DNA of 64,000 bases from Clostridiales bacterium. GTDB lineage: Bacteria; Bacillota; Clostridia; Christensenellales; Aristaeellaceae. How positions within the stretch are numbered: the first letter of the stretch is position 1; each line of letters starts with the position of its first letter. The stretch spans positions 1-64,000 of the forward strand of contig JAAYUF010000044.1 of assembly GCA_012517815.1 (NCBI GenBank). Direction: 5' to 3'. Below the pieces are notes generated by a model, which worked only from the letters and a program-made list of their open reading frames with translations, was not told the DNA's origin and made no database searches. A program made the translations under genes and the position numbers. Below, one piece after another: positions 24,536 to 25,324 of the stretch.

Positions 24536-24958
24536 TCAGATGGCGCGGTGCCCAAGCCCCACGCAGATTTCGTCCAAGTGCCCCAGGCCGATGCCGAAAA
24601 ACACCGCCACGGCCACATGGTCGTTATAGCGGGCCAGGCCGATTTTACCGCCGATGCTCATGCCCAGCGCCTTGGGCGTCACCTGGTTGAGCGCCTCCCG
24701 CGCCGCGCCCGCGACGCCGCCCTCCTCCAGGTGGCTTTCGCCGATGAGCCCCTCCCGGCGGGCCGCCACCACCGCCCGCTCGACAATGCGGATCATCGAC
24801 GGCAAAAACTCGCCGCCGAAATCCGCCGCCGCTGTGGCCACGCCTTCCAGCGCCAGGGTTTTCTTAATCAGCTGTTCTTCCTCGCGCGAGCGGGACATGC
24901 TCATCTCGATCGCAGCGCGGGCCACGTCGCGGCTTCCGGGCTGGGTCTGTTTCTGCAT
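24536..24958 (-). CDS. HutP family RNA-binding antiterminator-like protein
   Basis: A 140-residue HutP-family protein. The C-terminal two thirds match well: GGEFLPSMIRIVERAVVAAR, LEEGGVAGAAREAL, IGGKIGLARYNDHVAVAVFF and the end CVGLGHRAI. In Bacillus, HutP binds the hut leader RNA with histidine and Mg2+. There are no histidine-use genes here; the gene is just upstream of cmk-plsC. The ATG at 24958 is chosen because AAGGAG is 7 bases upstream; the ATG at 24964 would be only one base from it. A structured RNA is encoded about 110 bases upstream. Confidence 0.85.
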   Translation of the reverse strand: MQKQTQPGSRDVARAAIEMSMSRSREEEQLIKKTLALEGVATAAADFGGEFLPSMIRIVERAVVAARREGLIGESHLEEGGVAGAAREALNQVTPKALGMSIGGKIGLARYNDHVAVAVFFGIGLGHLDEICVGLGHRAI

Positions 24959-25008
24959 CGGCATGCTCCTTCGGCGCGCACGCGGCGCGCGGTCCTGCTT
25001 TCCCGCTC

Positions 25009-25036
25009 ATTATATCATGCTTTCGCCGCAAGGCAA
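25009..25036 (-). promoter_or_regulatory. Promoter of the hutP-like gene
   Basis: Perfect TATAAT (25009-25014) with TTGCCT (25031-25036), 16-base spacer, minus strand. Confidence 0.6.
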
Positions 25037-25067
25037 CCTTTTTGCGCGGCGCGCCGGATGGCGCAAC

Positions 25068-25289
25068 AAAAAACTCCTCCGTAAAAGTACGGAAGAGTCG
25101 TTGAGCACCCAAAGTGCCGCTGCACCTGGTTTTTTCACCCGCTATGTATAGCAGGCTGGTACTCTACCGACAGGGTTTGCCTTCCCCTGACGTCTTGCGA
25201 CGGGGGCCTGACAGCTGCTGACGAACGCGAGTTCCACTTAGGAAGTGTGGGTAAAAACAAGATGCTGGCGCGCACTTCAGGATGATCTC
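25068..25289 (-). ncRNA. Structured small RNA, possibly 6S-like
   Basis: A transcript of about 222 nt with no coding frame. It has a perfect promoter and a strong terminator (25068-25100: TCCGTA/TACGGA stem flanked by ACTC/GAGT, then six T). The 5' and 3' parts pair in register: GTTGAG with CTCAAC, CATCC with GGGTG, AAGTGC with GCACTT, and GCGCC with GGTGC, a long interrupted closing helix. The 3' side has a hairpin CCTGCTA/TAGCGGG, and an inner GCAA tetraloop closes CGTC/GACG. A closing helix, large bubble and small 3'-side hairpin resemble 6S RNA. I do not recognise a conserved 6S sequence, so the class is a guess. Confidence 0.6.
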
Positions 25290-25295
25290 AACCTG

Positions 25296-25324
25296 ATTAT
25301 AAGCATGCGCTCACGGGATGTCAA
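25296..25324 (-). promoter_or_regulatory. Perfect consensus promoter of the small RNA
   Basis: TTGACA (25319-25324), 17-base spacer, TATAAT (25296-25301): the only fully consensus promoter noticed in the window, suggesting strong expression. Confidence 0.9.

Follow-up and report, generated by a model that had tools for sequence, protein, structure and literature searches.

The region between a dTDP-glucose 4,6-dehydratase gene (rfbB; TIGR01181) and a gene for a HutP-family protein (hutP; PF09021) in the 64,000-nucleotide stretch of DNA analysed here (the window) raises two questions: which class of RNA it encodes, and whether the closeness of that RNA to hutP reflects a functional pair. The original prediction had described a structured RNA of about 220 nt whose fold suggested 6S RNA, and had treated the adjoining HutP-family gene as a hint of an RNA-protein relationship.

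Identity of the RNA gene

A search with the Rfam models placed a 6S RNA (RF00013) on the minus strand (25286..25103, 56.6 bits, E 1.4e-8), spanning the full model (1–187) at a score that exceeds the gathering cut-off of 46.4 by only ~10 bits. No other Rfam family reached its gathering score in the window; SRP RNA gave no Rfam match there and the window contained neither a tRNA nor a tmRNA, so that the comparison originally suggested among 6S, SRP and tmRNA returned 6S only. The locus was also the sole RF00013 match in the genome. A covariance model built from 40 6S sequences of the family, the window's own among them (model R1), matched 25291..25097 with 187.7 bits, and neither RF00013 nor R1 revealed a further copy at E up to 1 in the 93.8% complete genome. 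Together, the two models delimit an RNA body of ~190 nt (25097..25291, minus strand).

The structure of the RNA was consistent with this assignment. The folded RNA (25290..25066) had a free energy of −91.2 kcal/mol (z = −4.5) that none of 200 shuffled sequences equalled, and its ends pair with each other through several consecutive helices, in agreement with the predicted pairing of the 5′ and 3′ ends and, at ~190–220 nt, with the predicted size. Across the 40 family sequences (39 distinct, the window's included), the canonical 6S structure was paired in 94.3% of cells, while structures slid along the same alignment fell to ≤45.4%; the structure counted was largely derived by RNAalifold from that alignment, excluding the template helix and with the hairpin in the 3′ part of the central bubble (3′-CB) completed by hand. 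Both sides had changed in 23/47 pairs (shuffled mean, 17.8) and in 216 cells (shuffled mean, 82.6; 0/500 shuffles as high), counts to be read with the caveat that the shuffles do not keep the relatedness among sequences and that the independent test is the Rfam model. The rod-like 6S fold, which runs from a closing stem through the central bubble to a terminal stem, is kept by covariation among these relatives, as the original prediction had proposed to check.

The 6S gene is flanked by predicted transcription signals of its own. A sigma-A-type promoter (TTGACA-17-TATAAT; 25296..25324, minus strand) agrees with the consensus at 12/12 positions and is, as had been claimed, the only perfect example in the 64 kb window, where one further site with one mismatch occurs and shuffling predicts 0.01 matches at ≤1 mismatch. 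The strong terminator that had been noticed is also present, as a 12-bp stem followed by a T run (25072..25099, minus strand). Three terminator-like sites were detected in the 2 kb scanned against 1.5 expected, so a single such site is not rare; a hairpin similar to the 6S terminator, judged by eye, follows the RNA in all genus mates except one (G004).

The RNA between rfbB and hutP is thus, with near certainty, an ordinary 6S RNA gene, of which one copy was found and which carries both a consensus promoter and a terminator of its own; 6S RNA is a class of regulator long known to bind RNA polymerase. Direct support comes from the family match, from the fold with its covariation, from the conservation of the template, and from the copy number, promoter, and terminator. 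The annotation is settled as 6S RNA of the housekeeping kind, from a little-studied family of the Clostridia.

Central bubble and predicted pRNA

A predicted template for product RNA (pRNA), GUUUUUACCCAC, lies on the 5′ side of the central bubble (25247..25258, minus strand) and was delineated by conservation and by pRNA hallmarks. The element UUUUUACCCACA on this side of the bubble was exact in 32/40 family sequences; variants occurred in the other eight, four of them from one genus. Known pRNAs, according to PMC8414754, carry GG at positions 4/5 or 5/6 and AA at positions 9/10, with an adenine adjoining the start in the 6S RNA. The predicted pRNA, reading 5′-GUGGGUAAAAAC from window position 25247 to 25258, fits these hallmarks (GG at 4/5, AA at 9/10, and, in 6S, an A beside the start), and its first nucleotide is the predicted start site.

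The 3′-CB hairpin (helix 8) was paired in 98.5% of cells of the 40-sequence alignment, with one G-C to A-U replacement in four sequences. A small hairpin at this position is known for B. subtilis 6S-1, according to PMC8876501. Judged by such Bacillus-type features, which add to the confirmation of the originally suggested class, the RNA is of the B. subtilis 6S-1 type. The template itself pairs at 97.7% with GGGUGAAAAA on the opposite side of the bubble, and the bubble may therefore be partly closed in the free RNA. A new helix between template and opposite side was considered and set aside: the high pairing is accompanied by only three double-changed cells, and four sequences break one pair. 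The pairing of the template with GGGUGAAAAA is better viewed as helix P2 together with an alternative pairing in competition with the 3′-CB hairpin.

Expression, polymerase binding, and pRNA synthesis are proposed here by analogy with B. subtilis 6S-1. The RNA would fold like an open promoter and bind sigma-A RNA polymerase as growth slows, keeping the polymerase from housekeeping promoters; the polymerase would then copy a short pRNA (predicted start, 5′-GUGGGUAAAAAC) from the 5′ side of the central bubble, opening helix P2, and this opening would release 6S from the polymerase. The window's RNA shares with B. subtilis 6S-1 (bsrA) and the Firmicutes 6S-1 type the long closing stem, P2, the central bubble with its 3′-CB hairpin, the terminal stem, and a pRNA template on the 5′ side. 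It differs from B. subtilis 6S-1 in its predicted pRNA, with GG at 4/5, and in its placement before hutP and a cytidylate kinase gene (cmk). The copy number differs as well, with two 6S copies in B. subtilis (PMC8414754) compared to the one found in the window's genome.

Distribution of 6S in the family and order

Surveys of 200 sampled family genomes, both using strict filters, returned a 6S RNA in 117 genomes with RF00013 (95 over the cut-off) and in 178 with R1, including 97/104 of those of good quality; R1 gave no 6S match in 22/200. A first sample of 60 relatives had yielded RF00013 matches in 47, of which 40 were over the cut-off. As R1 detects 178 genomes compared to 117, the misses of RF00013 mostly reflect the limit of a general model and not absence of the gene, and Rfam RF00013 under-reports 6S in this family of the Clostridia. 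Second 6S matches occurred in two genomes of the R1 survey (G159, G180) and in one of the first RF00013 sample (G052), and possibly represent 6S-1/6S-2-like paralogues or contamination.

The promoters of the family loci were close to uniform, with 12/12 consensus matches in 35/41 and 11/12 in 6/41 (the window's included; spacers 16–18 nucleotides), a set of best-scoring matches that leans towards typical genes and to which 13 order-level loci do not belong. On these 41 loci, a consensus promoter is characteristic of the family's 6S genes.

A separate arrangement was observed at the order level, where 6/13 loci (L002, L003, L004, L006, L009, and L017; ~1300–1830) place 6S between tRNA-Val(GAC) and tRNA-Gln(CTG), either abutting the tRNAs or separated from them by up to some tens of bases; one further locus (L025) has 6S with tRNA-Gln only. 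The tRNA-Val-6S-tRNA-Gln arrangement looks as if 6S were cut from a tRNA transcript. It can be likened to that of the Streptococcaceae, for which PMC8414754 reports a tRNA-Lys downstream of 6S, in that 6S forms part of a non-coding RNA cluster; the order-level relatives differ in the tRNAs involved and in having 6S in the middle, and the window's arrangement differs from both.

Gene order around hutP and cmk

The gene that follows 6S in the window (24536..24964, minus strand) belongs to the HutP family (PF09021, 147.7 bits; cut-off 25), bearing out the predicted neighbour, and in this genome it lies outside the 6S unit. The protein had no NCBIfam match and no PDB sequence match, both at E 0.001. 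Neither hutH (histidine ammonia-lyase, PF00221) nor hutU (urocanase, PF17391) was matched in the 93.8% complete genome, so the HutP protein seems to be without its usual target, as originally stated.

The adjacency of the two genes extends beyond the window. In 12 genomes from three genera, hutP is the next gene after 6S and shares its strand: six of the window's genus, five of one further genus (G132, G168, G182, G194, G223), and one of a third (G012). This adjacency, and its retention in G012, where hutP begins ~50 bases after 6S (L167, 1762–2425) with no cmk hit in the 9.6 kb downstream, would favour a reading in which HutP, by binding 6S or the 6S terminator, controls how much of the RNA is present or how often the terminator is read through; HutP is also named an antiterminator in PMC12456014. 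The wider distribution argues against it. HutP was matched in 46/200 sampled family genomes, three of which (G162, G185, G211) lack an R1 match, and among the 43 with both genes only 12 have them adjacent, a count that may miss a few pairs split between contigs since many of these genomes are fragmented; in one genome (G076), no 6S lies within 3 kb upstream of hutP. Conversely, HutP was not matched in 135 of the 178 family genomes that have 6S. Among public HutP loci (the best 80 of 484, several with short upstream stretches), 6S was near hutP in just seven by sequence profile and R1 and in six by Rfam, and these seven apparently repeat G001–G005, G132, and G182, representing two genera only.

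Known binding determinants point the same way. The site of B. subtilis HutP consists of spaced NAG triplets, and the pattern NAG-N4-NAG-N4-NAG did not occur in 11 linked 6S genes, each taken with 40 nt of downstream sequence (0.7 expected; G132, the twelfth linked genome, is outside this count), or in 43 other 6S genes (1.4 expected), a weak test given such small expectations. A looser two-triplet pattern occurred once in the linked 6S genes compared to 5.5 expected, and 19 times in the others compared to 15.9. With linkage that is local and no such site, binding of HutP to 6S was retained as a weak rival only and is considered very improbable. Of the original hint, the adjacency stands, while the RNA-protein relationship drawn from it finds little support in the public loci or in the triplet pattern.

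The position of cmk offers a different account. A cmk gene lies beside hutP in 26/30 family HutP loci, the exceptions being L063 (where there is little room), L064 (G012), L075, and L079, and within 1.5 kb downstream of hutP in 46/78 public loci (those of the best 80 of 484 with >300 bases downstream). As 39/78 of these have cmk downstream but no 6S nearby, HutP and cmk form the wider pair and 6S is a local neighbour. In the window's genus and the further genus, 6S heads [hutP]-cmk clusters; three genomes of the latter genus (G018, G111, G204) lack hutP and have cmk immediately after 6S. Linkage to cmk does not explain every case of 6S next to hutP, since G012 keeps the pair without cmk. Overall, local gene order accounts better than a new RNA-protein pair for the closeness of 6S to hutP, and the hutP neighbourhood by itself should not be read as such a pair. 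In the literature searched, no paper was found that pairs 6S RNA with cytidylate kinase, HutP with cytidylate kinase, or 6S RNA with the term Christensenell; 6S RNA and HutP do co-occur in one paper. In the Clostridia, a HutP family that may stand apart from hut genes was often seen before cmk.

A 6S RNA followed by a same-strand protein gene has a precedent in E. coli, where ssrS (6S) and ygfA form a dicistronic unit. The window shares this order, while its next gene differs and is preceded by its own promoter-like site. By this precedent, the 6S gene could in addition be a leader or attenuator of hutP and cmk/plsC-ispH/rpsA, with terminator read-through supplying the mRNA, a reading considered unlikely. 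It is favoured where no promoter-like site follows 6S: in G018, G111, and G204, cmk starts right after the 6S terminator; in G004, hutP follows without an obvious terminator either; and in G012, a hairpin is found between 6S and hutP. Read-through is therefore plausible in these five genomes. On the other side, the window's hutP has an extended −10 promoter (TTGCCT-16-TATAAT with TG; 25009..25036, minus strand) that is separate from the 6S promoter and lies beyond the 6S terminator, an equivalent site occurs in 5/6 genus genomes (the window's and four of its five mates; absent in G004), TG-TATAAT promoter-like sites precede hutP in the four loci of the further genus that were viewed (L037, L046, L048, L050), and the placement of 6S before hutP or cmk was observed in only three genera. 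Ordinary 6S with local gene order remains the preferred reading for the window.

An extension of read-through would have the 6S terminator act as an attenuator before hutP, cmk/plsC, and ispH/rpsA, with an antiterminator of the HutP family, departed from hut control, setting the degree of read-through. This is the least probable of the readings weighed, extremely improbable on present evidence; if true, polymerase-inhibiting 6S output would be tied to the expression of nucleotide, lipid, and ribosomal-protein genes through HutP-set read-through.

At three loci (L023, L045, L049), no promoter-like site separates the 6S terminator from the cmk start that directly follows it, and the cmk cluster there may be sustained by read-through from the 6S promoter. 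The extended −10 hutP promoter of the window's genus was seen at 25009–25036 in the window and at L011, L020, L024, and L026. In two of these loci, L020 and L024, an inverted repeat (CCATGC-N7-GCATGG) lies over the −35/−10 region of the hutP promoter and could be an operator.
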